64,000 bases of DNA, from NCBI GenBank assembly GCA_964019425.1, contig OZ025825.1:317001-381000 (forward strand), in the 5' to 3' direction. The notes under the pieces were generated by a model. It saw only the letters and a program-made list of their open reading frames with translations. It had not been told where the DNA came from and made no database searches. This DNA comes from Flectonema sp. DT1601. Taxonomy: Eukaryota; Euglenozoa; Diplonemea; Diplonemida; Diplonemidae. Numbering within the stretch: the first letter of the stretch is position 1; the number at the start of each line of letters is the position of its first letter. Position numbers and translations under genes: made by a program. Positions 6,048 through 56,188 of the stretch are shown here, one piece after another.

Positions 6048-6081
6048 TTTTCTTTTCTTTGAAGGGGATCTTCACCCGCAC

Positions 6082-6113
6082 CTGATGGGAAATTAATAAT
6101 AAAAAGAAAAGTT
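6082..6113 (-). promoter_or_regulatory. Candidate trans-splice acceptor, surface-protein gene
   Basis: Read on the minus strand, a T/C-rich tract (CTTTTCTTTTTATTATTAA) runs into CCCATCAG, and the ATG follows 34 bases later at 6047. A pyrimidine tract followed by the first AG is the kinetoplastid spliced-leader acceptor signal. The site is inferred, not proven. Confidence 0.55.
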
Positions 6114-6269
6114 TGCATTGCAGACCTGAGAACTTTAGTCGCTCCCAGTCGTAAACACAATTTCTCACATCAGATTCTGAAGGAGGAAGAAGAGATAAAT
6201 TTATGATAATAAATAACTCCAGGAACAATACGTATATAAAATAATAAGCCAAAGTGTAAATTGCATCCG

Positions 6270-8918
6270 CTATTTTCGATTCTCATCTCTACTTAAATTC
6301 AGAAAATCTCTCTTTCTTACGACCTTAACTCTTCGCTGAGGTATTTTTATTTTTATTTTATCTCTGCACGCAGGATGATTTCCTATCCGTAATTCATCGT
6401 GAAGCGGTGGGGGTTCCGAAGCTGAAAATGCTTTTCTAATTAAACCAGAACGACTCCTCTTTGAATAAAGGGATGAAGAAGGAGGAGGCGTCGGTACCAC
6501 AGCAACAAACGAATCAGGTTCTGACGAAGCCGTGTGAAGAGCTGCTCTAAAGCGATGGAATAGTTGGGAATTCGTACGTCTGATGACCCCCAGGCCAACA
6601 TCCATTGTATGGTCTGTGACGTAGTCTATAATTGCGTTATTTTGAAATCGATTACCGTCAGTTATTGAATTTGATAGCCTTTCAAGTAACACCTCCTCAA
6701 GTTTATATTTAGCATCGCTCATCTTTATTGGAATTTTACTTTTTTGATGACCTCTACTTCCACTTGCGTGATATGCATCAGTCACCGCAAGTGTCTCAGC
6801 TGCTTTCTGTAGCTGTTTGTTGATTTCAAACGATCTTGTTTTGTCAATGGGTGAATTGTCCATTGCTGAGTATTTCTCTAAGGACTTTTTACTGTTGATT
6901 ATTATTTTATTAACAAATTCTGGTTTGATATCCGTGATTGGTAACTCGAAATCCTGAGCCTTGTTAATCTCCGAGAGGGATATGCAGTTGTTGTCAGTAG
7001 TGTATTCTCCTTTTAGTAGGTTTGGTATCTCACACGCAGTTTCACTTATTTCAGTTTCTGATTGGTAGTCGGGTCTAGATATCGGCCTCTGAAGATCTTT
7101 GTTTGATGTGTTTATCGGTGAGATTGAGGTTTCAAATCGAACTCTGTGTCCACAAAAAGAAGTATCAACCAATAACTCTTTACTACTCGGCATCACATCA
7201 AACGGAAGTGTATCGTCCGTCAAGTCGAGTAGGTGGTCTGGTGTACTTGTAGTTGATGAGTTGTCTTTAGTCATTTGATCTTTATCATTATCAGGTAGAG
7301 AGTTTAATGATGTCTCGCAGGTAATATTTGACAAGTCTAATGCTGAAGTTGAAATATTTTCTCGCAACTTGTTGTCTCGATGAGAAGCTGCAGTCGGTTG
7401 GTTGTCAAAACTCGTCTGATCCACAGAGTGTGTTGACAAGGAGTGTGATTGTAACTTCTCATTAGTTGACATCTGAAAGGAGAGGTCAGAACATTTACTC
7501 ACAGCTGACTGTGTCAAAGGTAAGTGTTGTTCACTATAAGACAAGCAATCACTTGGACTCGGTGATGATGCCTTCTGACGATCAGAAACAATGGACGCAG
7601 ACATCTGATCTCTACGAGAGTCACCATCATCAATAGACGATAACTTTAAGCTGGGGATACGTATGGGACAGGTAGGTTCAGATGTTTCTGAATTATCATT
7701 TATTGTAGTGGTGGAATCATTCTCACTCAGGTCAACAGTATTCGACTCATCAACATCATCACCACAGAGAGTACTGACATCGTCTAGTTTTGAGACATTC
7801 GTATCGCAGATATCATTTCTACCACTCGAAAGAGAGTTCACTTCACTCTTCGGTGTTGAATTGGATTTACCGTCGAGACCAACAGTCGGAGGCGATGCAC
7901 TTTCAGGTCTCAGCGAACAACTGCCATCAGCTGTGGTACTGCAAGTCAGATTGATATCAGTTTTCGATTCTTCACAAGATTTACTTTTGAATAGAGAGTT
8001 CACTGGAGAATGATCATCCTCATCGACGTCGTGTAAAGGTGATTCATGTTGTGATTCATGATGTTGTTGTTGTAAGAAGTTATAAGAATCTGACTCAGTG
8101 CGATAAGCCTCCTCATTCGAATCCTTCGATGAGAATTTAACGAAAGCCTTTCTACGTGACAATGATTCAAAAGATCCGGGTGGGCTTATCGCACAATACA
8201 GTTCCCTCAGGAATTCCAACGCCTCCGATTCGGAATCAGTCTCGACCCAGGCATCGACAATAGTAATGAGAGCAGAAGAGAAGTTTTCACGAGACATGTT
8301 CTTACCATCCGGTGAGACGTGACGATTAAATTCAAACCTACCATTTACTGTGAGTGTTTCTTCAATGTTTGGTACGCTACCGTAAAGTAACAGTCGATAA
8401 ATCTTAACATAAAGATCTACAAAATTAACAACCGTCACATGACAAAAGACACTACCACGAGTCACAACCGTTGACCACATTAACCAAAATCTCTCTACTA
8501 ACATAAATATATCTCTTGAGCCAAGCAGAGATCCTAAGGTCGGATTTGATAGTTTTTTCATATTTGACGGATGCCAGTAAGGAGCACTCTGTATAGCTAC
8601 GGAAGACCCCACTCTTTTGAATGTTAAAGCAACAGCTTTGCGTACATGTTGATTAACATCGTTGTGGGTGTAGTTTCTTGTCTTGCCGCAGTACACTTTG
8701 ATCATTAAATCAGTTCCTACTTTTGTTATTCCAGTTGTTAATATTTTTCTAAATAACATTGAAATTAGTGTTTTTCGTACTTCACTTTTAAACAGGTCAT
8801 CTTTAAATAAAAATATCCACGATGGGTTTTGCTTTCCGTTAGTACTCCACTTCGTAACTTTTCTTTGTGTTGGAACCACAGCAATGGTCGCATCAAAACT
8901 GAATTCGAGTCCCAGCAT
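6270..8918 (-). CDS. Conserved-looking protein of unknown function with long disordered Ser-rich tail
   Basis: 882 residues. Residues 1-255 look folded: mixed hydrophobic helices with many aromatic residues, including a stretch rich in W and F around 140-155 and a block near 180-255 reading like helices linked by a D-G-K-rich turn (PDGKNMSRENF). Residues 260-740 are rich in S, D, T and N with scattered acidic patches and look disordered. A basic Arg/Lys-rich end follows (about 815-882, with RRTNSQLF and QRRVKVVRKR). I recognise no named domain. It sits 222 bases upstream of the surface-protein gene and has a strong acceptor-like tract at 8993-9050. It might be a cytoskeletal or signalling scaffold, but that is a guess. 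Confidence 0.75.
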   Translation of the reverse strand: MLGLEFSFDATIAVVPTQRKVTKWSTNGKQNPSWIFLFKDDLFKSEVRKTLISMLFRKILTTGITKVGTDLMIKVYCGKTRNYTHNDVNQHVRKAVALTFKRVGSSVAIQSAPYWHPSNMKKLSNPTLGSLLGSRDIFMLVERFWLMWSTVVTRGSVFCHVTVVNFVDLYVKIYRLLLYGSVPNIEETLTVNGRFEFNRHVSPDGKNMSRENFSSALITIVDAWVETDSESEALEFLRELYCAISPPGSFESLSRRKAFVKFSSKDSNEEAYRTESDSYNFLQQQHHESQHESPLHDVDEDDHSPVNSLFKSKSCEESKTDINLTCSTTADGSCSLRPESASPPTVGLDGKSNSTPKSEVNSLSSGRNDICDTNVSKLDDVSTLCGDDVDESNTVDLSENDSTTTINDNSETSEPTCPIRIPSLKLSSIDDGDSRRDQMSASIVSDRQKASSPSPSDCLSYSEQHLPLTQSAVSKCSDLSFQMSTNEKLQSHSLSTHSVDQTSFDNQPTAASHRDNKLRENISTSALDLSNITCETSLNSLPDNDKDQMTKDNSSTTSTPDHLLDLTDDTLPFDVMPSSKELLVDTSFCGHRVRFETSISPINTSNKDLQRPISRPDYQSETEISETACEIPNLLKGEYTTDNNCISLSEINKAQDFELPITDIKPEFVNKIIINSKKSLEKYSAMDNSPIDKTRSFEINKQLQKAAETLAVTDAYHASGSRGHQKSKIPIKMSDAKYKLEEVLLERLSNSITDGNRFQNNAIIDYVTDHTMDVGLGVIRRTNSQLFHRFRAALHTASSEPDSFVAVVPTPPPSSSLYSKRSRSGLIRKAFSASEPPPLHDELRIGNHPACRDKIKIKIPQRRVKVVRKRDFLNLSRDENRK

Positions 8919-8992
8919 ATAATCTACAGTTTAAATATCATTATTATGAATGATGCGTTGTCCCACCGCAAAACATAATCTTTTTTTAGTTG

Positions 8993-9050
8993 CTGTGGTT
9001 TTTGAATATAATAATTTAAAATAAAAAAGAGAAGAAAAAACCAAAGGAAG
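8993..9050 (-). promoter_or_regulatory. Candidate trans-splice acceptor, 882-residue protein gene
   Basis: On the minus strand a long T/C-rich run (CTTCCTTTGG, then TTTTTTCTTCTC) is followed by a T-rich stretch and ACCACAG. This leaves a 5' leader of about 74 bases before the ATG at 8918. Confidence 0.55.
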
Positions 9051-30556: not shown

Positions 30557-31558
30557 AGTCCGAGATAAATTGATACGATTTTCGAGGGAGAGACAGAGAG
30601 ATCAAAAAAAAAAAAAAAAAAGTTAATTACCGATAGAAAAGTACAAAAAAAAAAAAAAAAAACCATTCAGATAAGCCTTATATTTTGTTGATCGCAGCTA
30701 GTTTTACTGGCGCACAGGGAAATAGATAACATGACATAATAAATAACGGCTCTTAATCTGAATAGTTTCTTCTCCGACTTCGTCGGTGCAAAAAAAAAAA
30801 AAACGCCCAATTTTGTGGCGCGAGGACGCGGGCTGCCTCATGCAGTTCAACAACATGTTAATACTGATGTACTAAGCACCTCCGGGGTAATAGATTCATC
30901 TTCGCAGTCAGTCGCTTTGAATAAAGGAATAAGCGACCAGGACATACAAAATGACTTTTTGATTTTTTTTTAAAAAAGAAACACCAGGCCAACTTCATCG
31001 TCGCGCACAGCAGTTAAACAACGGATAGCAAGAGAGACATGGAGGCTGTGTACTCCATCGCAGTAACTACTACTTCCATGGCGAGCAGAATGACAAAGCT
31101 GAAATAAATAAATAAAAGAGCTTTTTGTGTTGTTAGTTAGTATTTTGCACTAGCGGGAGTTATCACAAATGAATAAATAATCAATAACGGCAAGTCTAAA
31201 AAACTGATAAATGGAGAGTCTGGGTGACCCAGTTTATTGTGTGTTTAGTTTGTAAAGAAATTTTGAAACAAAAAAACAAAAACAAAAATAAGTTCATCCA
31301 TTAAGGTCTGTTTTCCTATTTAGGATAATTCAGATAACATAAGCGGATTTTCAAGAACAAAAAGTCTTCTCTGCTATATGGGTGCTTAGAAAAGAAATTT
31401 CATAAGAGAGAGGAAGAAGAATCGGCAAGATACCAACAGCTGGCAAGATTACGAAAATGGTATAAAAAATAACACACAAGAGTACAATAAGTTTTCAGGA
31501 ACTACACAACGAAGTTGTTAAGCCGTCAGTCAGGACCTATCTTGCGAAAAAGACAGGA
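29674..31558. other. Intergenic region with a diverged duplication
   Basis: AT-rich, with long A runs (30521-30555, 30604-30621, 30646-30662). Two copies of a roughly 95-base segment lie at 30205-30295 and 30418-30510, sharing CACATTCGCACGAAAAGTAC and AATTTGTTAAACAACAGA. No gene is supported. Confidence 0.55.
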
Positions 31559-31872
31559 GGGGGTAACTTGATACTAATATTAAATGGAAAGCAACTTGAA
31601 ACTGGCAAAAACGAGAATAGGGTTCGGCCAAACCTGGTTGCAATATAAGAAATCAACAGTTGGTATCGATAGAAAATCCCATATGTGCTGTCGAATATGG
31701 GGATTCGGGGGCCACGTACTACAGGTTGAGCACCCCATGCCCTGTAGCCCGTTACAGCTTAAAATAGTATTCCTTCACACTTCAAAGGTAAATAAATATT
31801 AAAGGAAAATTAAAAAAAGAAAACTATTTTTGCAAAAATAATAAAAGAAATAAAGAATAAAAATAAAATATA
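31559..31872 (-). repeat. Penelope pseudo-LTR, left copy
   Basis: 314 bases identical to 37248-37561. Two potential hairpins lie in the middle: AATCCCATAT pairing with ATATGGGGATT (one bulged G), and CTACAGG pairing with CCTGTAG around a 16-base loop. No canonical hammerhead core (CUGANGA...GAAA) was found by eye on either strand. Confidence 0.92.
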
Positions 31873-31939
31873 AATTATTTCTGGTTCGTAGCACACTACC
31901 AGTGGAGCACATCTCGCAATACTTTGCTGCGAGTGATAA

Positions 31940-34900
31940 TTAACTACGTTCGCTTTGCTCTCGAAAGACTGTACAATGAGTTTGGTGTGATCTTAAGCCT
32001 CGTAAATTAAATTGTCTTCCGGCCTGAGATTCCGTGGCACCACACGCAGTACAGATGAATAATCCCAAACAACTCAAACAAACATCATAATCACAGTCTT
32101 TTTGTCTACATTGGAATGCAAGATTATAAGTGGTTTGTGGCAAGTTGCGATCACAGATATTACAGTACATATTACTACTTACCTTCGCAAATTTCAGGTT
32201 GTGTCTTGCTGGACATAAGTGGAGCTCTTCTTTAAAGATTAGAATGTCTGAATCTTCTAATAAATTAATAAGTACATCCACAACTAGCTCTTCATCAATC
32301 GTATTAGAACTTGAGGAAGTAGTTGAGGAAGATGAATCGGAAGAGGTCACAGATACGGTTTCTGAGGTTAAATCTGAGCAACTTGACATTGTTGTGGCTG
32401 CTTTCATTTTGATCTCATCGAAGTACCAGTAATGCAACAGTTCGTAAACATCATAATTAACGTTGTCGAAGGTTAAAAGGTTCATAGTGGCACCCGCTTT
32501 CGATAGAAGAGTATCAGCGTCGACAAAATTAGGACACATTTTCGCTAATTCAGGTACTATTAAATTCATGAAAGCCTCATAATTCCATTGCGACATAGTA
32601 AATATGGTGCATTGTTTTCCGTGACTTCTCGGTAAAATTGGCATATAGTGCTCAGAAGTAGTATGGTACGCCATTACACCGATCGTACCCCAAAAATATG
32701 TATCTTGTGTACTGGCTGGGGAAATCCATCGTAAACTTTTTTCCTGCACGCTATTAATAGTGATTAGTATTAAAGAACAACCCATTTCATCTAAGAAAGC
32801 TTGAATATACACATGATCTGTATATGTATTACTGTCAAGTACATCTTCTGTGAATTTTTCATAATCTGTGTCTACAAAACTTTGGTATTGCGCCTTCTTT
32901 AAAGTCAGTCTACGATGTATAACTCTACGTACCCATTCAGCGTTTATGACTCCATTTTGACAAATTATTAGTGCCATAGATTCAAAGAAACAATTACCTG
33001 CTGTGTTTACCGAGGGTATTGTTAAGTCCCAGTCCATAGTTTCTAGTAGAGTTTTCATATCCCGAAACGTAAAATAAGAAACCAACTCGTCCAAATGTCC
33101 CAGATTCACCTTGGCATCCGAATTGGTAGGGGATGACAATTTTTGAACTAGGACAGCTGTTCTGTCGGTTTCAATTTCATCTTTTTCGATGGGCGGGTAC
33201 ATTATATAGTTTCTTTCACCAGTCGGGTAGTAATAATCTTTCTTCAAGCCTTCAAGGATCCGGTAGAAAAGATTGATGCATCTTTTATTGACAAAAGGAT
33301 ATTCTTCATAGAATTCGTCACAAAATTCCTTGTAGCCGGTTGATATGTGATGCTTTTTAAATTTTCTAGTAATCATCCGATAAATTATCCATTCAAACTC
33401 TATTAGTAGGTCAGAGAGGTTGTTACAAATCATGCTGGCTCTATACATCGCTCCTTTAACTATACCTTTGGGTATGGAATCAGGCATCGTGGAGTCTGCA
33501 TGCACGTACTGTAAAGGTTTGAAGTTCCACTCTTTCCGATGAACGGAGAGACGAATAAATTTCTTTTTCACTTTCACTTCTTCCCTTGCAATGTCTTCCT
33601 CGACCCGTATCCGTGCACCAAGAAACACCACATCATTACTATCTAGGGAGGTATCTTTGTAGTCCATGCCGTACATCTTTTGCGGCGGTGGTTTTGTCCC
33701 CCAGCATAAAAAATCATCAATATATCTTACTGTTAAAGTATGTGACTTCGCAATTTCCAGAGTTGACTGTTCTATAAATTTCTTCTCAACTGCATAACAA
33801 TACAAGTTAGCTAGAAGCGGGGAGGCATTACCCCCCATGGGTATCCCTTTCGTTTGACGGTAGCATTGATGACTACCAATCGGTTGGATTAAAGAATAGT
33901 CGATACACATGTCAATTAGTTTACCAATCATTTCGGAAGTGTATTCCTTTGTGTTTGCATCAACTCCGTCTGTGAAAAAGAAAGTCTTGGACTTTCCACG
34001 TGCTCTGCTATTTCGTGCAATATGTTTCTTACCGGAAAATCTAAAAGCTTCATCTACTGCTTCTTTGCAATTTCGTTTAAGTACCTTATGCTTCAGGTTG
34101 CTGTACATGGTGGTGAAGTCATAAGTTTTGGGTTCAGCGTATTTTAAAAATTCAGGGTAGTTGGATTTAATCCGTTGTATTACCTCATCTACTGAGTCAA
34201 CAATAAAATATTTTCTAACACCAGTCTTTACATATTCCATATGGTCCTTTGATTTTAGTGTGAGCAGTATTAACTTAATAATTCCAGTAAGTTCTTGTTG
34301 AGCGTGTGTCATTACATTGGATCGAAAAACTCTCTCTCTTGTATTGGTCAACTTCTTTGATTCGTCAGTCTCTTTGTCAGGTTCTTTCGTTTCCTCAATC
34401 AAAGTTTCACAGTTGACAGAAGTACCTGCAATCCATCTAAGGCGGATGTCTGGGATCTTATGCAGTTTAAAAATCCCATATAAGTACGGCACTGCGCCAG
34501 TGATTTTTGGAAATTTGAGTTCCTTATTTGTTTTCATTAACCCGTCTGTTAATACATTTTCTACTTGTTCGTAACTTTCCATTTCATTTTTCAATAGCTC
34601 ACAATAATAAGCTTTGCACATTACTGCGCAATCATGTCTTGCTTTATCCACTGGGAGGAATACGACATGTTTTTTTAGGTCCTTTAATTCTCTCATACAC
34701 TTTGCTAAAGTTGCATCGTTGGGTAAGGGTTTTAATTGTATTTGTGAAGTGAATTCTTCCTTCAGCCATCTATTTAAGACTTCGGCGTTTGCTTCTCTGT
34801 CGCTTTTAGTTGTCCCAATCATGAATCTCGTTACTTTTTCGGTAAATCTATCAGCTGCTTCATGAAGTTCTTGTGTCATCTCATGTTGTGAACAGTGAAT

Positions 34901-36226
34901 ACGGTAAAGCATTCCTAACTTTAGTACCTCTTTTAGTTGATCACTACATTTCAAAGAAGAACAATGTCCTGCAACATGTTTGGTATTACAATTATCTTCT
35001 TTGTATTGATAACAAGGACATTGTTTATCATTTAGTGGAGGTGACTTTTCTAACTCAATCGTATTTGTGTTAAATATTTTCGATCCTAAAGTTCTGCTGA
35101 GTCCATAGGATGTTTTGGTAGGTAAACCAGAGGGTAGTAACTTCTTATACTTTTCTTTTATGAATACTGCATTAAAGTCCATTTTCTTCACACAAGGGTG
35201 CAGCATCTTCAGACAAAACCAGTGGCAATCAACCACACGATTCTTTTTTCTTTCTCTTTTAATTTTAAGAGCCTCGTTGAGTGCTACAATGATTGCTTGC
35301 ATTTTATTATTTTCTTTCACTTCGTGACTTGCAAATCTTCGGATCCAGTGAAACATTCGTGAAATTCTTGTGAAAGACCAGTCTTTAATAACTTCAACAT
35401 TAAGTGCTTCAAGATTGCATAAATGCTGTAGTTGTTTCCTTAAGCCATAGAATAGGCGAAACTTTGGGTTCGGTCCGACATCAGTGATGATCACTCGACC
35501 ATTATTTATTTTCGTCCAATTTGAAGGGGGTTCGTTAGTATTCTTTTTCCGTCTTCTTCTTTTTATCTTTTCCGTCGGGACTTTCGTTCGTGTGGATGCT
35601 TTTTTGTTATTTTGTACTTTCTTCTTTCCCAGTATATTATAATGCGGTTTGAAATGACTGATCCAAAACCTCTCGGCTGGGTCAGCCATATTACGGAATA
35701 GGAAACTGTTGTTTTTCAGGAAGTCGGGTTCATTAATTACTTCCAGTGTCACTGGGAATAATGGATATTTTCTCTTACGTATGAATTTGTATAATGGTTG
35801 AGTACATTTCCCCTGTACTGAGCGATTGCTCCAGTGTTGTTTTTCTCGATCTCTCGCAGTTTTATAAGTTTGACCAACATAACGGATATGTCCTCTCTCA
35901 CACAATAAACCATAAATTACACCTTTACAATCTTGAGGCTGTGCTTCAAAAGAGAGTCCACGTTGTTGGCGTGCTGTCCTTAACTTCTTTGAATAGTTCT
36001 GTTCAAACTTTCGTCTTGCTTCTTTTAATGAAACTTCGTACTGATCATCTCTACGTTGGTTCTTTTCTAAGATCTTCCGGTCTTTAAATGCAACAGTGTG
36101 AACAGAACTTTCATCTTTGGCTCTGCGAACTACTGATTTGGCAATTCCAAACGGTATATGGTCAAGAGCTAAAGATAATTGGGATTTGGGAGGTGAAGTA
36201 TTTTGGGATAAATTATAATTTTGCAT
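31940..36226 (-). CDS. Penelope-like polyprotein: GIY-YIG nuclease, reverse transcriptase, OTU-like domain, zinc fingers
   Basis: 1428 residues without a break. A GIY-YIG nuclease fills about 100-200 (GVIYGLL 102-108, YVGQT 116-120, E185 in AERFW, N197). A Cys-rich segment follows (403-445). The RT spans about 520-900: PVDKAR in the place of the DKG motif, YGIFKLHK 583-590, motif A YDFTTMYSN with D703, motif B GIPMGGNASPLLANL 794-808, and motif C YIDD 835-838. An OTU-like cysteine protease covers about 1066-1200, with C1079 in AGNCFF and H1193 in EHYMPIL; Ala replaces the Asp usual before GNC. An acidic Ser-rich linker (1280-1312) leads to Cys fingers (1338-1386) and a C2H2-like pair (C1392, C1395, H1414, then H/C). 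N-terminal GIY-YIG matches the Naiad/Chlamys clade, whereas most Penelope elements carry it C-terminally. Confidence 0.92.
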   Translation of the reverse strand: MQNYNLSQNTSPPKSQLSLALDHIPFGIAKSVVRRAKDESSVHTVAFKDRKILEKNQRRDDQYEVSLKEARRKFEQNYSKKLRTARQQRGLSFEAQPQDCKGVIYGLLCERGHIRYVGQTYKTARDREKQHWSNRSVQGKCTQPLYKFIRKRKYPLFPVTLEVINEPDFLKNNSFLFRNMADPAERFWISHFKPHYNILGKKKVQNNKKASTRTKVPTEKIKRRRRKKNTNEPPSNWTKINNGRVIITDVGPNPKFRLFYGLRKQLQHLCNLEALNVEVIKDWSFTRISRMFHWIRRFASHEVKENNKMQAIIVALNEALKIKRERKKNRVVDCHWFCLKMLHPCVKKMDFNAVFIKEKYKKLLPSGLPTKTSYGLSRTLGSKIFNTNTIELEKSPPLNDKQCPCYQYKEDNCNTKHVAGHCSSLKCSDQLKEVLKLGMLYRIHCSQHEMTQELHEAADRFTEKVTRFMIGTTKSDREANAEVLNRWLKEEFTSQIQLKPLPNDATLAKCMRELKDLKKHVVFLPVDKARHDCAVMCKAYYCELLKNEMESYEQVENVLTDGLMKTNKELKFPKITGAVPYLYGIFKLHKIPDIRLRWIAGTSVNCETLIEETKEPDKETDESKKLTNTRERVFRSNVMTHAQQELTGIIKLILLTLKSKDHMEYVKTGVRKYFIVDSVDEVIQRIKSNYPEFLKYAEPKTYDFTTMYSNLKHKVLKRNCKEAVDEAFRFSGKKHIARNSRARGKSKTFFFTDGVDANTKEYTSEMIGKLIDMCIDYSLIQPIGSHQCYRQTKGIPMGGNASPLLANLYCYAVEKKFIEQSTLEIAKSHTLTVRYIDDFLCWGTKPPPQKMYGMDYKDTSLDSNDVVFLGARIRVEEDIAREEVKVKKKFIRLSVHRKEWNFKPLQYVHADSTMPDSIPKGIVKGAMYRASMICNNLSDLLIEFEWIIYRMITRKFKKHHISTGYKEFCDEFYEEYPFVNKRCINLFYRILEGLKKDYYYPTGERNYIMYPPIEKDEIETDRTAVLVQKLSSPTNSDAKVNLGHLDELVSYFTFRDMKTLLETMDWDLTIPSVNTAGNCFFESMALIICQNGVINAEWVRRVIHRRLTLKKAQYQSFVDTDYEKFTEDVLDSNTYTDHVYIQAFLDEMGCSLILITINSVQEKSLRWISPASTQDTYFWGTIGVMAYHTTSEHYMPILPRSHGKQCTIFTMSQWNYEAFMNLIVPELAKMCPNFVDADTLLSKAGATMNLLTFDNVNYDVYELLHYWYFDEIKMKAATTMSSCSDLTSETVSVTSSDSSSSTTSSSSNTIDEELVVDVLINLLEDSDILIFKEELHLCPARHNLKFAKVSSNMYCNICDRNLPQTTYNLAFQCRQKDCDYDVCLSCLGLFICTACGATESQAGRQFNLRGLRSHQTHCTVFREQSERS

Positions 36227-37247
36227 GAGTGTTATTAATAAAGGTAACTGTTAACTCTAAAATGGTTAACTATTTTTTTGGGAAGCTTGACCCTAAAACT
36301 GCTTTTTTAAGAAAATAAAAATGGTAAAAATTAAATAAAAATAATGAAAAGAGATTAAAGCTTTCTCAAGAAGGCTAAGGAAATGAAAGGGAAAAAGGTT
36401 GTCAGGGGATTATTGAAAGCAGGGGATGAAGGTCGGGTCAGGGCTACTTCCCAGCCACAAAACCTTCATCCTAAAACCCCTGCAGCACTTGATGACTGCT
36501 CCTCATCTAATATGGGATCTAACCTACTAGTCCGCAGACGACTACCCTACTGACGGTGTTCCTATTAGTCAGTCAATAGTGTCCATCTACGACAGCGGGT
36601 CATCAAATACACAAGATAATAGAAAGAGAAAGAAAAGAGAGAATTGACTAACCCTGTACTGAACAACCATCTCAGAACGGAAGACGGTTGTTGACAATAA
36701 ATATTTATTGAACATTTTAAAAAAAATAAAAAAAATTAAAAAAGTAAACTTAAACTTAATCTTCGTTGAAGATCTCGAAATTAATTCGTACTCATATCTC
36801 TGAATAAGGTACATAATATTATGTGTCCCAAATTCCAATTAAAATTCATAGTAATTCATCATGGCGGTACATTTGTACTCCGAATCAGCCAAATTATTCA
36901 GTACCAATTGGTACTTAGGACTAAGTTTACAGCTTTGAATTGTATATACTCTTCTTAGCTGCAACTGCCTCTAAATAAACATTTAAAATCAACCAAATTA
37001 TTATTGAAAAACACAGTAGAAACGATTATAACTTTAAAACAAATTTCTTCCAAACAAACGAACGATAACCAACCGAAGATACGCCCTTAAAGAAACAGGT
37101 AACAAAAGCTACCGTTTAGTTCAAATCCTCACACTTTATGGAGGGATGAGGCGTATAATAAAATATGAAATACAAATCCATGCAATTCATTTATTTTGAT
37201 ACATACTCCACACGAAGGCATGATTGTCCTCCGGGTATATGTATAAG
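36227..37247 (-). other. Penelope element leader
   Basis: About 1.0 kb between the right pseudo-LTR and the ORF start, non-coding. The element's promoter is expected in the upstream repeat or here, but no specific motif is recognised. A 13-base AT-rich core and a short region around 36440-36580 with balanced composition are the only visible contrasts. Confidence 0.5.
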
Positions 37248-37561
37248 GGGGGTAACTTGATACTAATATTAAATGGAAAGCAACTTGAAACTGGCAAAAA
37301 CGAGAATAGGGTTCGGCCAAACCTGGTTGCAATATAAGAAATCAACAGTTGGTATCGATAGAAAATCCCATATGTGCTGTCGAATATGGGGATTCGGGGG
37401 CCACGTACTACAGGTTGAGCACCCCATGCCCTGTAGCCCGTTACAGCTTAAAATAGTATTCCTTCACACTTCAAAGGTAAATAAATATTAAAGGAAAATT
37501 AAAAAAAGAAAACTATTTTTGCAAAAATAATAAAAGAAATAAAGAATAAAAATAAAATATA
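37248..37561 (-). repeat. Penelope pseudo-LTR, right copy
   Basis: Identical in all 314 positions to the left copy, including the same 72-codon chance open frame. It is followed directly by GGGGGGAAAAG. Confidence 0.92.
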
Positions 37562-37736
37562 GGGGGGAAAAGAAATCACAATTTTTTTTTTTTTCCACCA
37601 ATTATGCTATTGAGCATGCGCTCGTTGAAGGATCGTGATTTCGTCGCAAGCAACCAACAGACTATTCTAAAAGGTAAGAAACCAGCGATATCAACACGAC
37701 CAATAACATAAAGCAGAGATAAATTAAAATAAAATA

Positions 37737-38207
37737 TTATTTCGACGCCTTTGAGTAATTGTGAAGACGCATTCCAATTCGAGTCACCTGCGAATGACTG
37801 ACATAAAGTTCCCATCGTAAATGAATTAAAGTAATTTTTTCCATGTAGTTTAAATCACATAAAGAAACCAATCCAATCTTAGCATAAGAAGAGTTATCTA
37901 AACAATAATCGTTCAGTGTTTTGTCAGCGATCACTAAGCAGGCTAGTAGTATTCTGTGAACCGTTAGTTTCGTTAAAGGAATTCCTTTTGATAGCAATCG
38001 AGAAATCAATTCTGATGCAGTCATCCAAGTGCTTTTATCTTCAACAACCGAGTATAGGGTTTCAATATAACTTTTAACATCCACTGCGGGTATTTCTACA
38101 CTCTCAAGAGCACTGAGAGGATCATCGCTATTCAAAGTCTGACTGCTTCCTTGACTTGCAACAGCCATTGCAGTTCCTAATCCGTCCAACCAGCTTGGTA
38201 CTCGCAT
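37737..38207 (-). CDS. PHO80-type cyclin
   Basis: 156 residues. The core reads VHRILLACLVIADKTLNDY followed by NSSYAKIGLVSL, matching the PHO80/P-type cyclin pattern in which a conserved HRLLL...A.K...D helix precedes NN.YAK.GG. A leading helix (SYIETLYSVVED, then ISRLLSKGIPL) fits the start of the cyclin box. Kinetoplastids use several such cyclins with CDK-related kinases in the cell cycle. The protein is slightly short at the C-terminus, and the GG usually seen after AK.G is GL here. It lies just outside the Penelope insertion, 175 bases from its right repeat. A partial copy of its 5' end lies immediately upstream. Confidence 0.85.
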   Translation of the reverse strand: MRVPSWLDGLGTAMAVASQGSSQTLNSDDPLSALESVEIPAVDVKSYIETLYSVVEDKSTWMTASELISRLLSKGIPLTKLTVHRILLACLVIADKTLNDYCLDNSSYAKIGLVSLCDLNYMEKITLIHLRWELYVSHSQVTRIGMRLHNYSKASK

Positions 38208-38265
38208 GATTGTGTTGTGTTCTGTTTTAAGATTTATATAGTTAGTACTTCACTACCCGTTTTAC

Positions 38266-38406
38266 TTATTTATTTATTATTATTTTTTTTTTTTTTCCAC
38301 TCTCAAGGGCACTCAGAAGATTATTGCAATTCAAAGTCTGACTGCTTCGTTGACATGCAACAGCCATTGCAGTTTCCAGACCGTCCAACCAGGTTGGTAC
38401 TCGCAT
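38266..38406 (-). pseudogene. Truncated duplicate of the cyclin 5' end
   Basis: A 199-base tandem duplication placed a second copy of the cyclin leader and first codons upstream. It starts MRVPTWLDGLETAMAVA versus MRVPSWLDGLGTAMAVA in the gene, then runs into an A tract and stops after 46 codons. Divergence of roughly 10-15 per cent shows the duplication is not fresh. The duplicated leader could act as a second trans-splice region or an upstream reading frame. Confidence 0.8.
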
Positions 38407-38982
38407 GATTGTGTTGTGTTCTGTTTTAAGGTTTACATAGTTAGTACCTTGCTATCCGTTTTATTTATTTATTTTTTTTTCTAACTCATGGTTTGACATA
38501 TCCCTATATGAGAGAAATATTTGATGATTTTTAATTCTTTTTAATTTTTTTCTTTTCATCTACGTAAATCGCAAAAAAACAACAACAACAATAAACAAAC
38601 AAACAAACATTTCTACATTCATTGCTACAGGGGTTGAGGCTTGGTGTTATTTCTTCTTTCCTTGCATCATTTTTTTTTTTTTTAATTTTACTATTTTTTT
38701 TTCGATTTTTCGTCGCCTTATACGGGAATGGGAGCAAGCTTCACGGATACAAACAAGAAGAAGCAAACAAGGGAGGAATTAAGGTTGGGAAGGGATGCAC
38801 ACATTAAATGTGTCTCATAAAAAAAAGACATGACCAGTAAAATAATAATGGACAACAAAATATGGAGAAAAAAAAAGGGCACTCACACAAACTACAAGTA
38901 GTACGATAGATGACAAAACTAAACTGTGATAAGGAAGGGCTTTATAAACAATCTCTTGTTCATATTAAATATAAATAGATGT
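38407..38982. other. Intergenic spacer between BILBO1-like and cyclin genes
   Basis: AT-rich sequence with the rest of the duplicated cyclin leader (to about 38480), an AAAC repeat near 38592-38609 and T runs. No gene is seen. Confidence 0.5.
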
Positions 38983-50353: not shown

Positions 50354-53300
50354 CTAGGTTGGCAGCAGCCATTTATTTGAATCGAACCACACTGGATCGA
50401 TCCGAGTAAATTTAGAAGACCTTATCTTCTCCAGGAATGAGTTAAAATGTTGGTTTTTGTTTTTATCCGAATTCAAGAAACAGTATAACTCCAAGTCCCA
50501 CAAATGGTCGTAGACTTTTTCGATTTCATTTGCGTTATAAACTTCTGAGATCAGTTTTCTGACTTCCTCCTTACACTTCGAATCAAGTGTGGTAACAGTG
50601 GAATGAACGGACAAATATTTGACAAGACGTTGTCGAGGGACCGCTCGACGTAACGGGAAGCTGTCGTGTAGGCTCCTGAGGTCATTCAAGAGCGATATGA
50701 GAGCCAATTGGTTTTCAGTAGCAAAAAACTTGTGTAGATGTTGACCCACATCCTCATCTTGATCATTAAATACCATCTGTGGGAAGTGAATTTGAACAAA
50801 CATCTTAGTCTCCGGACATTTCGATAGTAAATGGTGAGTATCTGTATCTCTTTTATTACAGAAGAGACAGTTTGATAATCCCTTTCTTGGTTGCTTCACA
50901 AGCGGATGGTGTCCAGTCCTGAGGCGGGCGATTTGCATTTCTCCCTCACGGTTAAGATCCGGGTGGAAGCGTTGAGCACCTCTGCCCATTGTCGATAAAG
51001 AGTGCACATGTGATGTACTGCGCTGCTCGTACCAGTTTCTTCGGATTTTATTATTCACTGAACATTGGGTCATCCTGTAGTCAAACTTGACCACTGTTAA
51101 GGGAATAGCAGAAGCCGCTGCTTTGTTGGCGAGAGAATCGGCCATTTCATTTCCGATGATCCCACAGTGTGAGGGGACAAATTGTAGGGTGATCGGACGC
51201 TGGAGCAGCGATATTCTCCTAAATAATTCGGCATTAGTCGCTGAATGTTGCTTCAGATGTCCACGCTCAAGACTTCGAAGTGCTGACTGACTATCCGTGA
51301 TTATATTAATCCTCCCACTTGGCAGGCAAGACGAATACTTTTCAATCAAATTCACTGCTGATAACAGAGCCTGTTGCTCGGCATTATAAATCATCAGAGA
51401 TGGGTCGTAACGATGTATTTCTTTGATGCATCTCTTTCCAAAGATTAAAACTGCTGCATTACCACAATGGTAGTTACTTTCTTTATCTTGGAAGTAGGAT
51501 GCATCTGTATACAGCGAGGCCACTGACTTTGGGAGGGTCTTAATTTTTCCAAGTGCAGCTAACAAATTCTTGCATGGGTCCATGGACTTACGGAAATCTG
51601 CCCAGGAATTGATAATAACATCCGGGGGTGGTCCCCAAGGAGTCTGGTGATGCGGTAGGCAGAGCATTGATCTTTCATTAGGGGTCACATAAGTCTTGGC
51701 ATGGGGTTCTGCGTAGAGTTTCCACGAGCTAGACTTTTCAGGGTGAACCAACGACCGAGTCGGGCAATCGTCTGGGAGCCTCAGGAAACGTTCGTAGGAT
51801 AAAGCCAGGACTTTAGCCACGTGTAGTTTGAACGGGGGAATACTAGATTCTACCGATAATGCAGTTGAGGAGGTCGATTTGGAGCATCCCGTCAGTCTTA
51901 GTTGAAGTGAACGAAGTGTATTCTCAATAAGTTTCAAAGAATTCTGCTTGATATAGGGTGCATAAGAAGCTAGTCCGTAATAGGCCCTAGAGAGGATCAG
52001 CCCATAGATTGTTTGTCGGAGAACTTCCGTTTTGATTTTAAAAGATGAAACTATCGAAATCAAGCCGATTCCCCGCTTTAGGGTATTTGATAGGTGAGCT
52101 AACTGCGATGTAAAAGATAAATCATCGTCGATAATTATGCCTAGATACCGCGACTGCGACACACGCCTTAGAGGGATTGCAGCCTTTAGAACGAAAGAAC
52201 CCTTTGGCGTCCTTTGTGAAAGTTGAGAGCGGGTCTCAAGGTAGTTACCATTAATTGCAAGTGGGTATACCGGTCCTGTTTTGAAATTGAGCAGAGCTGC
52301 GGCACCATCATCCTGATGTATCCTGATGAAGTCGGCAGAGCCACGGGGAAGGTCGATATCGTCCACCGTAGAGGGAAAATAAAGTCTTGGAAGTCTACAA
52401 ATACTTCTGTCTGAGAAACGTCCTCCGAATGCCAAAAATTCAGTCTTGTTCAGAGAGAGGGACATTGCTGAATCAGCGAGCCAGTTCTCCACTTGTCCTA
52501 TGGCATTGTTCGCCTTGGATTCCAAATCACTAACCGAAGAGCCACTAACAAACACTGTCAAGTCATCCGCGTATAACAGCTTTAAATCGGCTGTGATGGC
52601 ATCCGGTAGGGAGTTCACGTACACACGGAATAAGAGCGGTCCTAGAATACTGCCTTGTGGGACCCCCTTTTTGCAAGAAATCGGGCCTGTACGGTTATGG
52701 CCGTGGAGAAGATGCGCTACTCGGTCCGAGAGGAAATTACCAATCCACCTTACATAAGGGACTGGGATGAGTGTTGTAAGCCTACTCATTAGAATATGGT
52801 GATCCACATTATCAAACGCACCCGAGATATCGAAGAAAATCATCGTTGCACATTTCTCATAATTGTTTTTAACTTCAGCTGCAGCTTCGATCATAACGGC
52901 TATATTTTCCTCCGCTGACCTACCAGGAACAAACCCAGATTGTTTAGGGTCTAGTTTAGAAATCAGCAGATGTTCTAATCTAAAATGGACAAGGGATTCA
53001 ATGAATTTAGCAACTACTGAGGTCAATGAGATAGGACGATAGGAGGCGGCATCAGTCGGGTCCTTTTTGCTACCTTTTAGAATAGGGAGAACATGTGCTA
53101 CTTTCAAACATTTCGGGAAGGTTCCTCTCTGGAAAGACCAGTTTGCAATACGTAGGAGAACTTCCTTAGCCATATCTCCAAAATGATAAATCATGTTGTT
53201 ACTTATAGAATCCGGACCGGAGCCGTCAGACTTTTTCAAAGAATTAAAAACTGCTTGGGCCTCTGCCATTGTAAAAGGAGAGCAACTGGGTTCTGAAAAA

Positions 53301-54361
53301 TCCACCTTTGAAGTATGCGGAATAAGCAAGGGACGATTGTCAGAAGAATCAGGGAAAAAGCGACGTTTGAGCGCTCCGACGTTCACCTGCGGGGTCTCAA
53401 TAACCGTTGACTCTCCTTTCAGTTCTCGTAATTTCTTATAAGTCCAGCTAAAGCCCTTCTTACAACCGTCGATTAGAATAAGTTCAGGGTCCAAATGGCG
53501 ATGTTTGCGTTTAACCCGGAAAGATTCTTTGTGCCACTTATTTGGAAGAGTATCAATCGCAACAGATTCTATTGTTCGAACAAAACTGTCACAGAGTTTA
53601 TTTAAAGATCGTATCCTTTTAAGTCTAAAACAATGGGAGTCAAGTTGTGCGGAGAAGGAGGACCAATGAGATTCCGTAAAACTGTTTTTGAACCATATAC
53701 GATGAGCCGGAATAGCTACCGGTACAGTGAGGGGAGTCACATTAAAATCTGCAACAATTGGGGTATGATCGGAATTAACTTGCCCAGCATCAATCTGCAG
53801 CGAACGCAGACACTTGAACTGCGGCGAGTGCAATAATAAATCGGGCGTTGTACCATGAGCAGGAATAGAAGGAGCCAGAGGTTCAATAGCTAATCCATTA
53901 TTTATAATCCATTCATTTACTATCCTTCCTGAAGAGACGCACCCCTTAGGAATTCGACGCGACCAAGATTCATGATGTGCATTGAAATCACCTACTGCTA
54001 GATCCCCCAAAAACATAGAAGAGGGCAGCTGGCACACCTTCGGTGGGATGTAAATATTAAAAGTTCTAAATATGCCCATGGAAGTCGAGAAACTGCAATG
54101 GATAACCTCAACAGCGGATGGATGCTTACCTACTTCTAATTGGACCGTACCAAGAGACTTTTTGAAATAAGAAAGAAGTCCACCGCCTCCCATTTTAGAA
54201 GAGTCGCACCTATCACGGCGGAATAATGAATATCCTGTAATACCAAGTTGATCATCGGTTACGTCTGCTTTCAACCAAGTTTCCTGGAGGTGGATAATAT
54301 CAGGGTCGTGAGCTTCGATAATAGCATCGAGATGTGAACGCGATGTTTTATAAGCTCTCAT
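50354..54361 (-). CDS. LINE ORF2: AP-type endonuclease, reverse transcriptase, RNase H
   Basis: 1335 residues counted from the first Met, but the frame is open upstream to 54478 and the nuclease fold begins there (VLSWNMRAY), so that Met is not the true N-terminus. Endonuclease: E27 in LQETW, GDFNAHH with D125 and N127, SDHTPIV with D198 and H199. RT: SYRPISLTS 440-448, motif A FFDISGAFDNVDH with D511, motif B KKGVPQGSILGPLL 564-577, YADD 597-600. RNase H: D953 (YTDAS), E995 (NAEQQAL), D1023 (ITDSQSAL), D1075 (NEMADSLAN) and HCGIIGN. A Cys/His finger lies at C1165, C1168, H1176/1177 and C1182. All catalytic residues are present. Confidence 0.95.
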   Translation of the reverse strand: MRAYKTSRSHLDAIIEAHDPDIIHLQETWLKADVTDDQLGITGYSLFRRDRCDSSKMGGGGLLSYFKKSLGTVQLEVGKHPSAVEVIHCSFSTSMGIFRTFNIYIPPKVCQLPSSMFLGDLAVGDFNAHHESWSRRIPKGCVSSGRIVNEWIINNGLAIEPLAPSIPAHGTTPDLLLHSPQFKCLRSLQIDAGQVNSDHTPIVADFNVTPLTVPVAIPAHRIWFKNSFTESHWSSFSAQLDSHCFRLKRIRSLNKLCDSFVRTIESVAIDTLPNKWHKESFRVKRKHRHLDPELILIDGCKKGFSWTYKKLRELKGESTVIETPQVNVGALKRRFFPDSSDNRPLLIPHTSKVDFSEPSCSPFTMAEAQAVFNSLKKSDGSGPDSISNNMIYHFGDMAKEVLLRIANWSFQRGTFPKCLKVAHVLPILKGSKKDPTDAASYRPISLTSVVAKFIESLVHFRLEHLLISKLDPKQSGFVPGRSAEENIAVMIEAAAEVKNNYEKCATMIFFDISGAFDNVDHHILMSRLTTLIPVPYVRWIGNFLSDRVAHLLHGHNRTGPISCKKGVPQGSILGPLLFRVYVNSLPDAITADLKLLYADDLTVFVSGSSVSDLESKANNAIGQVENWLADSAMSLSLNKTEFLAFGGRFSDRSICRLPRLYFPSTVDDIDLPRGSADFIRIHQDDGAAALLNFKTGPVYPLAINGNYLETRSQLSQRTPKGSFVLKAAIPLRRVSQSRYLGIIIDDDLSFTSQLAHLSNTLKRGIGLISIVSSFKIKTEVLRQTIYGLILSRAYYGLASYAPYIKQNSLKLIENTLRSLQLRLTGCSKSTSSTALSVESSIPPFKLHVAKVLALSYERFLRLPDDCPTRSLVHPEKSSSWKLYAEPHAKTYVTPNERSMLCLPHHQTPWGPPPDVIINSWADFRKSMDPCKNLLAALGKIKTLPKSVASLYTDASYFQDKESNYHCGNAAVLIFGKRCIKEIHRYDPSLMIYNAEQQALLSAVNLIEKYSSCLPSGRINIITDSQSALRSLERGHLKQHSATNAELFRRISLLQRPITLQFVPSHCGIIGNEMADSLANKAAASAIPLTVVKFDYRMTQCSVNNKIRRNWYEQRSTSHVHSLSTMGRGAQRFHPDLNREGEMQIARLRTGHHPLVKQPRKGLSNCLFCNKRDTDTHHLLSKCPETKMFVQIHFPQMVFNDQDEDVGQHLHKFFATENQLALISLLNDLRSLHDSFPLRRAVPRQRLVKYLSVHSTVTTLDSKCKEEVRKLISEVYNANEIEKVYDHLWDLELYCFLNSDKNKNQHFNSFLEKIRSSKFTRIDPVWFDSNKWLLPT

Positions 54362-54382
54362 ATTCCATGAGAGTACCCTAAG

Positions 54383-54418
54383 AGGCCCAGGATTAGGGTG
54401 GATCCCTGAGCGTAAGAG
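54383..54418 (-). other. 2A-like ribosome-skipping motif
   Basis: Twenty-one to thirty-two codons after the ORF1 stop, in frame, the sequence reads LLRSGIHPNPGP and is followed at once by LRVLSWNM of the endonuclease. NPGP is the invariant core of 2A peptides; GIHP replaces the usual D(V/I)Ex. 2A sequences are known at the N-terminus of trypanosome ingi and L1Tc proteins. Activity of this variant is uncertain. Confidence 0.65.
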
Positions 54419-54472
54419 GTTAATACGGGCTGTTACTGTTTCATGAAATATGTTGTCAGGAATGGGAGCGAT

Positions 54473-54481
54473 TGATTGCTA
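54473..54481 (-). promoter_or_regulatory. UAG stop in a CARYYA readthrough context
   Basis: ORF1 ends CAG UAG CAA UCA. UAG followed by CAR-YYA is the tobamovirus-type leaky context. The downstream frame is the same and open through the 2A-like motif into ORF2, so occasional readthrough would make an ORF1-ORF2 fusion. Confidence 0.6.
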
Positions 54482-56188
54482 CTGGGCTGACTGGTTGTGC
54501 TTCAGTTGAGCCGCCATATCAGCGTGAGAGTTGGCCCGAGGGCGCTGGTCGGTGGAATCTCTACCGCTGCGGCGTTCGCGATCTTTGTTGGATTTACCCA
54601 GTTTATCTCTAAGTTTCTGATTTGCTTCTTTCTCCGCGGCCAGTTCCCTTCGTAATCCATCTATGGTAAGGTTGAGCGTCTGCAGTTGCTGCATGATCTC
54701 AGCATTGGAAGGCTCAGAGGGCTGACTAGGGAGTTGTAAAGGGGTTCCAATCGGCGTGTCAATAGGTGTTTTGTAACACTGGCTGTTATTATCCATTGCC
54801 ACATCCCCATCCGACTTTCCCAAGGCCGGGAAATCTTTCTGCGTTGGAAGTGTTGAAGACACAGCATTCACTGTGATGAAGAAGTCATCAGCCCACAGGA
54901 CCGAGCTGGGAGGCGACGTCCGTGCCACTACTATACAATGACTAGACCTCATGTTCGTCTTCGAATTTTTCCTGCTGAAGTGGGTACAGGTCGAAATTTC
55001 CCAACCATGGCTATTACAGATTTGCCATAGTTGGCTCCGAGAAAGGCGGCCCACATGATCACCAGAGATTCTGTATTTATCTCCTACCGGTGGAGCAGGA
55101 CATGCAAGCTCTCCAAGCGATGAACGTGTTTGGTCAGTCATTGATGCCGAACAGATTATTCCTAGTTTGTTTGTACCACGTAAGAAAGTCACCGGAGAGT
55201 TGAGGGACTTCCCGATGTTTTTCGCCTGCTGAAGATCGTTTGTCTGTAGCATGATGATGCTTAATTTTGCATCTATACTGTCCTGGGTAAATTTCGGCAA
55301 TGTGACAAAATACCCGTCTGGGCCGTTGACTGTGACCTCCAACGACAGCTTGTGAACGCGCGTACACGGAATTCGCATGTTCACCGTTCTAATTTTATTA
55401 GAGGTTTCCCTCTGTTTTGATGGCCACACCAGGTGACTGTCGATCTCTTCGCCGAACGCACTGAGGTATGCTGCTCGTGCGCGTGTCATCAGAAAGTCCG
55501 GAGTGACTTCCACCTTCTCAGCAAAATAAGATTTATGCGCGTGAAATAACACTACGCAATTTTTAACGTTTCTCTCAGACTTCTGTTGGGTTCTGAGAGG
55601 GGCTTTCGTGCTGCCGTAGGACGAGATCCAACCAGTACGCGACGACGTTTTTCCGTTGATGATTATTGGAAAAGTCAGCCGAGTGCTACCTTCCAACTGT
55701 TTGTGAGTGATGACTGAAAAGTCACCTTGTTTGCGAGACGCCAGGACTGCGTCTGCTGGGTTACAAATAAAAATACCAGAGGTATTGCTAATACTTGAGA
55801 AGGCTGTCGTAGCAGTGACAACCGGTAAAACCCAGTCTTCTGGTCGTAAAGTGATGTTCTGCCATGAAGGTGGCAGAGTTTTTAACGGAGGTGTCTTAAT
55901 CAGCGGGGTCTTAATCTGCTGGGTCGACTTCGTATCAGGCTTCTTCGCCATATTCAGTAAGGCGCCATAGTATCCGTCCTTCTTACCCGGAGCAATGGCT
56001 GTTCTCTTCGCTGAGCTTTCTATTTTTTGCGGACCTCTAACTTTTTGCCACTTGGCTTCTGTTTTTTCCGCCTCTCCCTTCTTCTTCTTCGTTCTCTTCT
56101 TCTCAACACTCAGTTCCTCACTCAGGAATTTCCTGAAGAGGGACAACAATCGGGCCTCATCAAGAGACCCGACCGGCTGTACTTTCAT
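54479..56188 (-). CDS. LINE ORF1 protein
   Basis: 569 residues. The N-terminus is strongly basic (KKRTKKKKGEAEKTEAKWQK). A middle region mixes strands and helices without a named domain. The C-terminal 77 residues form a coiled coil (EIMQQLQTLNLTIDGLRREL, then AAEKEANQKLRDKLGK) with a basic end. No CCHC knuckle is present. ORF1 proteins of this kind bind RNA and form oligomers. The ATG lies 41 bases from the element end. The stop is UAG in a readthrough-prone context. Confidence 0.85.
   Translation of the reverse strand: MKVQPVGSLDEARLLSLFRKFLSEELSVEKKRTKKKKGEAEKTEAKWQKVRGPQKIESSAKRTAIAPGKKDGYYGALLNMAKKPDTKSTQQIKTPLIKTPPLKTLPPSWQNITLRPEDWVLPVVTATTAFSSISNTSGIFICNPADAVLASRKQGDFSVITHKQLEGSTRLTFPIIINGKTSSRTGWISSYGSTKAPLRTQQKSERNVKNCVVLFHAHKSYFAEKVEVTPDFLMTRARAAYLSAFGEEIDSHLVWPSKQRETSNKIRTVNMRIPCTRVHKLSLEVTVNGPDGYFVTLPKFTQDSIDAKLSIIMLQTNDLQQAKNIGKSLNSPVTFLRGTNKLGIICSASMTDQTRSSLGELACPAPPVGDKYRISGDHVGRLSRSQLWQICNSHGWEISTCTHFSRKNSKTNMRSSHCIVVARTSPPSSVLWADDFFITVNAVSSTLPTQKDFPALGKSDGDVAMDNNSQCYKTPIDTPIGTPLQLPSQPSEPSNAEIMQQLQTLNLTIDGLRRELAAEKEANQKLRDKLGKSNKDRERRSGRDSTDQRPRANSHADMAAQLKHNQSAQ

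Follow-up and report, generated by a model that had tools for sequence, protein, structure and literature searches.

This work describes a Penelope-like retroelement in a 64,000-nucleotide stretch of the genome of Flectonema sp. DT1601 (contig OZ025825.1), referred to here as the window; positions are those of the window unless a locus or contig is named. The element spans 6,003 bp and has a single long gene, an open reading frame (ORF) of 1428 amino acids, whose product is ordered GIY-YIG nuclease, CxC linker, reverse transcriptase (RT), OTU domain, and zinc fingers. From its sequence anatomy, we consider it close to certain that the element is autonomous, was recently active, and is a Penelope-like retroelement with an N-terminal nuclease and with an OTU domain following the RT. 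As a whole, the observations are best explained by an active Penelope-like element that inserts at oligo-C and carries a weak, protective OTU deubiquitinase, a reading that we favor as the reasonably probable one.

The order GIY-YIG, RT, OTU-like, zinc fingers had been proposed in an initial annotation made from the nucleotide letters, and domain matches bear it out. All of the motifs quoted there are located in the 1428-residue ORF: GVIY...YVG at residues 102-118, YGIFKLHK inside 580-590, YIDD inside 833-840, GNCFF inside 1076-1081, SEHYMPIL at 1191-1198, and cysteine clusters at 1337-1418. The interval given, 31940..36226, holds as a single ORF but not as the extent of the element, which runs from 31559 to 37561. 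GIY-YIG similarity is retained on profile search as a full-length match to PF01541 (residues 101-197, E value of 2.2e-4, 21.9 bits), and this segment precedes the RT at about residues 500-1000. Judged by motif, Y105, Y116, R127, and E185 are likely the active-site residues, and the same pattern occurs in P0010 and P0012, two of the relatives (P0001 to P0012) that were yielded by protein searches. The CxC motif is present as C403-P-C405 between nuclease and RT and was also seen by eye in P0004, P0007, P0009, and P0010 and at loci L018, L031, and L040 of the same genome. The RT matches PF00078 under the cutoff (E value of 2e-5) and gave zero matches in the PDB; its relatives in protein searches reach E values down to 2.8e-31. 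The zinc fingers match C1_2 (E value of 2e-4, 22.1 bits; cutoff, 26), and the same C-terminal Cys/His pattern is visible by eye in L018.

Elements of the N-terminal-endonuclease (EN) group carry GIY-YIG before the RT with a CxC motif in between, have an insertion-in-fingers domain in the RT and pseudo-long terminal repeats (pseudo-LTRs), lack a canonical hammerhead, and show an insertion bias toward simple sequence. The permuted elements of this group, Chlamys and Naiad, were reportedly described by Craig et al. in 2021. These elements share with the window element the N-terminal GIY-YIG, the CxC linker, the RT, the pseudo-LTRs (here, identical 314-bp repeats), and insertion at simple sequences (here, C-runs). 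No hammerhead ribozyme was found at gathering scores across the window or among the 3 matches at an E value of ≤5 in 30900-38000. The window element is unlike Chlamys and Naiad, which are not known to have these features, in its OTU domain beyond the RT, its C-terminal zinc fingers, and its oligo-C target. With canonical Penelope/Poseidon elements, such as PAc of Anolis, it shares pseudo-LTRs, one ORF for RT and GIY-YIG, and, probably, target-primed synthesis; PAc differs in having a C-terminal GIY-YIG, a hammerhead, and an AT-rich target, and an OTU domain is not reported for it in the available part of that source (PMC11167929). Membership among the canonical C-terminal-EN Penelope elements was rejected because the GIY-YIG domain does not follow the RT. 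An OTU domain in a Penelope-like element was not found in literature searches, which did not extend to the principal description of the permuted elements.

The genome (89.5 Mb, 92 contigs) was searched with the element's protein, and all match counts are lower bounds. At least 44 matches were retrieved, 6 of them full-length and stop-free on 6 different contigs. The remaining matches represent fragments, copies in decay, or relatives. The same 6,003-bp unit recurs at 99.5 to 99.8% identity in L002, L004, L005, and L006. All six full-length copies have the 3' pseudo-LTR and five of the six have the 5' pseudo-LTR, the start of which shifts by 0 to 5 nt among copies; L003 starts within the leader. 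We give next to no credence to an assembly or annotation artifact, or to a host-gene fragment carried along as a passenger, as these six copies rule such a reading out and the same domain order is found in a sister family and in proteins of other organisms. The final 20 nt of the repeat are found at 257 places in the genome with at most one mismatch versus 0 for a reversed control; in this count each full copy appears twice, and at least 11 places belong to a regularly spaced array on contig C18. That tandem array (C18:1347579-1384158) contains the 3' end of the element eleven times, at intervals of ∼3.64 to 3.66 kb. Five short pieces (C80:584556, C48:831548, C7:31974, C64:673697, and C64:689396; 97 to 99% identity) each span residues 1-116 with one TGA and are perhaps a nonautonomous derivative. 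A comparison of the six full copies yields 27 codon variants, of which 15 change the residue and 12 are silent. The changing variants are fewer than expected without constraint, and a single one of the 27, a changing variant, falls in the OTU domain.

For insertion sites, 13 loci were inspected, 11 of which have a scorable 5' junction (the junction of L009 lies outside its locus and that of L015 in a rearranged copy). At least five C's within 15 bp upstream were present at 8 of the 11 junctions, compared with 0.445% of random window positions (binomial tail of 2.5e-17, insertions assumed independent). All eight are compatible with C-rich duplications of 5 to 8 nt; the C5 at the 3' end belongs to the repeat, and the duplication may therefore derive from the target in part only. 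In the window copy, this C5 and the C-run adjoining the 5' end probably constitute the target duplication. From these junctions, we judge it highly likely that the element targets oligo-C. In two other families (L031 and L035; L032, L033, and L034), the 3' ends likewise continue into at least four C's.

The OTU assignment is firm on the basis of sequence comparison. As the initial annotation had suggested, a profile search of the segment against the OTU family returned a match (PF02338, E value of 5.6e-4, 20.9 bits). A sister family of this genome (L018, L028, and L029; 46 to 48% identical), which has RT, OTU, and zinc fingers and whose nuclease half was observed in part only (L041), exceeds the Pfam cutoff with its OTU domain (32.4 versus 23.3 bits). 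This domain matches that of the window element at 1.1e-7, the two being 25% identical. A joint profile of both retrieved 26 sequences from the PDB. Ten of them are named OTU or ubiquitin thioesterase; the other 16 are viral L/RNA polymerase chains, and OTU appears in the titles of 11 of these 16. The window segment alone gave only two chance-like matches in a phmmer search of the PDB. The profile-profile link from the OTU domains of both families to those of P0003 and others is weak (13.9%). In an alignment with P0002, P0003, and P0005, C1079 and H1193 coincide with the catalytic pair of these proteins, and this Cys and His are preserved in both the window and sister families.

Several results weigh against parts of this reading. 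The OTU segment of the window alone falls short of the Pfam cutoff of 23.3 bits, a scan of the whole 1428-residue protein gave no OTU match, and the structure model of the domain is poor (pLDDT of 44.7). The PF01541 match of the nuclease lies 0.7 bits below its cutoff (22.6), its profile retrieved zero PDB matches, and its structure model is uninformative (pLDDT of 36.5). Constraint specific to the OTU domain is not measurable from its single variant among the six copies. A C-run is absent at 3 of the 11 scored junctions (L004, L010, and L016). Finally, Asp is missing in both families from two positions of the OTU active site, the residue before G-N-C and the Asp/Asn at His+2. These are A1076 and M1195 in the window protein and Phe at both positions in the sister family. 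The Ala, already remarked on in the initial annotation, is constant in all six copies, with no variant at position 1076 among the 27. P0002 and P0003 retain D-G-N-C and H-[YF]-D, which confines the loss to the window and sister families.

This confined loss would suit a pseudoenzyme, that is, an OTU fold that guides the ribonucleoprotein (RNP) by binding to ubiquitin or to a partner from the host, without cutting. A pure binder would not need the Cys and His, which are retained despite only 25% identity between the two domains, and we regard this alternative as rather unlikely. Turnip yellow mosaic virus (TYMV) PRO/DUB further argues against it. In the viral OTU compared with that enzyme, the main-chain nitrogen of the corresponding Asp supplies the oxyanion hole, and TYMV PRO is active without an oxyanion hole or third catalytic residue (PMC3744425). 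Because TYMV PRO works with a Cys-His pair alone, activity of the window OTU is possible. TYMV is an RNA virus, and we propose homology with its protease at the fold level only. The same enzyme both processes its polyprotein and strips ubiquitin from the viral polymerase (PMC3744425), which lends some support to a second alternative, that the OTU domain is a processing protease acting on its own polyprotein, for example to free the zinc-finger tail or the nuclease. The location of the domain within one long polyprotein would fit; there is no cleavage-site or fragment evidence here, and canonical Penelope-like elements work as one protein in vitro (PMC11167929). We hold processing to be unlikely, slightly more so than a pseudoenzyme. 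Less likely still is a domain directed not at the RT but at repair or chromatin factors of the host where the element inserts, a target that has been proposed for OTU and Ulp1 on DNA transposons (PMC2836005).

We favor a mechanism in which the element protein would bind its own RNA and the GIY-YIG part would nick T(n)C(n) tracts. Pairing between the C-rich 3' end and the C-run might follow, the RT extending from the nick and leaving a C-rich duplication of about 5 to 8 bp; the whole process would be target-primed reverse transcription at oligo-pyrimidine tracts. The OTU domain may act, or may once have acted, as a weak deubiquitinase with a Cys-His dyad that strips ubiquitin-like tags inside the RNP of the element and thereby shelters the RT complex from the proteasome. 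This protective role, the least sure step, is put forward tentatively, by analogy with TYMV PRO, a precedent of deubiquitination protecting a viral polymerase (PMC3744425).

Other mobile elements share a C-terminal OTU domain on their proteins. These include Ginger1 DNA transposons, the transposases of which have either OTU or Ulp1, never both together (PMC2836005), and Helentrons (PMC6431247). A role of the ubiquitin pathway in DNA transposon transposition has been offered as a possibility (PMC2836005). Ginger1 and Helentrons differ from the window element as DNA transposons without such an RT and without GIY-YIG, and the domain content rules out canonical Penelope, Ginger, and Helitron identities.

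Further N-terminal-EN families in the genome (L031/L037, L038, L039, and L040) carry a different Cys/His domain after the RT, with an invariant Cys in GECGW and His in TH[YF]I. One such domain matches 123 genome places at an E value of ≤0.001. The best Pfam match of the alternative domain, Peptidase_C39, is under the cutoff at 0.022. A Josephin identity, suggested by eye, was rejected after four domain scans and the PDB gave no match; the single genome match to Josephin PF02099 (13.5 bits; cutoff, 26) lies outside the elements read. A divergent OTU was likewise rejected (hhalign probabilities of 0.1 and 0.2%). PF02338 itself matches 71 genome places, 69 of them over the cutoff and many in open frames of 2,600 to 5,400 residues. 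Among these long frames, L036 (C6:1257501-1266500) alone was read: its ORF (1334-8998, plus strand), a single open frame of >2,555 residues, has OTU, RT, UCH (USP, peptidase C19), and RNase H1-N domains that each exceed the cutoff, as well as C2H2 fingers by eye. PF02338 matches in frames of similar length suggest that the L036-type element is present in many copies. RT trees (10 and 9 rows) reject neither a single OTU origin nor grouping by genome (approximately unbiased test, P = 0.419 and 0.567, respectively). With OTU, the alternative Cys/His domain, and OTU plus USP all found on retroelements, protease capture appears to recur in this genome.

Among the relatives from protein searches, P0001 is a copy of the window family (29 member sequences). 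P0002, P0003, P0005, and P0006 have Pfam OTU or Peptidase_C65 matches, the last three over a cutoff, and RT followed by OTU is common to P0002, P0003, and P0005. P0008 shows GDGNC by eye without a Pfam match; P0007, P0009, P0010, and P0012 stop before the OTU position, P0004 stops shortly past the RT, and P0011 continues from the RT into a J-domain, no OTU being found. P0010, itself without a Pfam match, aligns with the window nuclease and shares 96% identity with P0003 across 21% of the P0003 stretch. It is therefore very probable that the order GIY-YIG, RT, OTU also occurs beyond this genome, as pieced together from overlapping sequences rather than one protein. Relatives were not found in viral contigs or prokaryote genomes. 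P0006 and P0011 are RT proteins with a C-terminal J-domain (DnaJ), a chaperone module on a Penelope-like protein; P0006 additionally has OTU. A GEASNPGP string in P0011 may point to a dinoflagellate source.

Elsewhere in the window, neighboring genes match BILBO1_N and DGF-1_C, both under the cutoffs. Prostaglandin F synthases 1vbj, 4fzi, and 4f40, which are trypanosomatid enzymes, are among the nearest solved relatives of a neighboring aldo-keto reductase; a kinetoplastid spliced-leader pattern gave no match. In the region 38093-38480, the 5' portion of a cyclin gene (37737-38207) is succeeded by a second copy (189 bp at 87%). A long interspersed nuclear element (LINE)-type element occupies 50354-56188 on the minus strand, with endonuclease, RT, and RNase H at 50354-54361 and a likely first ORF at 54479-56188; large tandem and higher-order repeats (99 to 100 and 165 bp; about 42350-64000) flank it on both sides.

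Features of the Penelope-like element in the window and of related families at other loci
Feature	Position	Strand	Remarks
Whole element	31559..37561	minus	6,003 bp, 5' end at 37561; exact terminal direct repeats
5' pseudo-LTR	37248..37561	minus	314 bp, 100% identical to 31559-31872
3' pseudo-LTR	31559..31872	minus	314 bp, last letters ...AAGTTACCCCC
Leader	36227..37247	minus	5' pseudo-LTR to start codon; no long ORF
Single ORF	31940..36226	minus	1428 aa, ATG start, uninterrupted
GIY-YIG endonuclease domain	35627..35944	minus	residues 95-200; PF01541
CxC linker C403-P-C405 and subsequent Cys/His residues	34961..35023	minus	
Reverse transcriptase	33227..34729	minus	residues 500-1000, YIDD at 833-840
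OTU domain	32615..33049	minus	residues 1060-1204; C1079, H1193, A1076, M1195; PF02338
C-terminal zinc-finger cluster	31973..32218	minus	residues 1337-1418; C1_2
Oligo-C target run	37562..37567	minus	adjoins element upstream; GGGGGG on plus strand
Alternative Cys/His domain	L031:5403-5939		C-terminal slot
Alternative Cys/His domain	L038:3794-4315		C-terminal slot
Alternative Cys/His domain	L039:3722-4249		C-terminal slot
Alternative Cys/His domain	L040:3148-3645		C-terminal slot

The element is compact, places an OTU domain beside an RT and a nuclease, and exists in intact copies, such that one substitution (at Cys1079) makes the ubiquitin question testable. Elements of this kind may guard their own machinery against the protein disposal of the cell. 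More broadly, the retroelements of this protist could have repeatedly captured ubiquitin-pathway cysteine proteases as exchangeable cassettes in an arms race with a host defense based on ubiquitination, an idea that the sequences raise as a possibility somewhat more speculative than the protective role itself. If it is true, a host defense that ubiquitinates retroelement proteins would be the common cause of the repeated protease capture.

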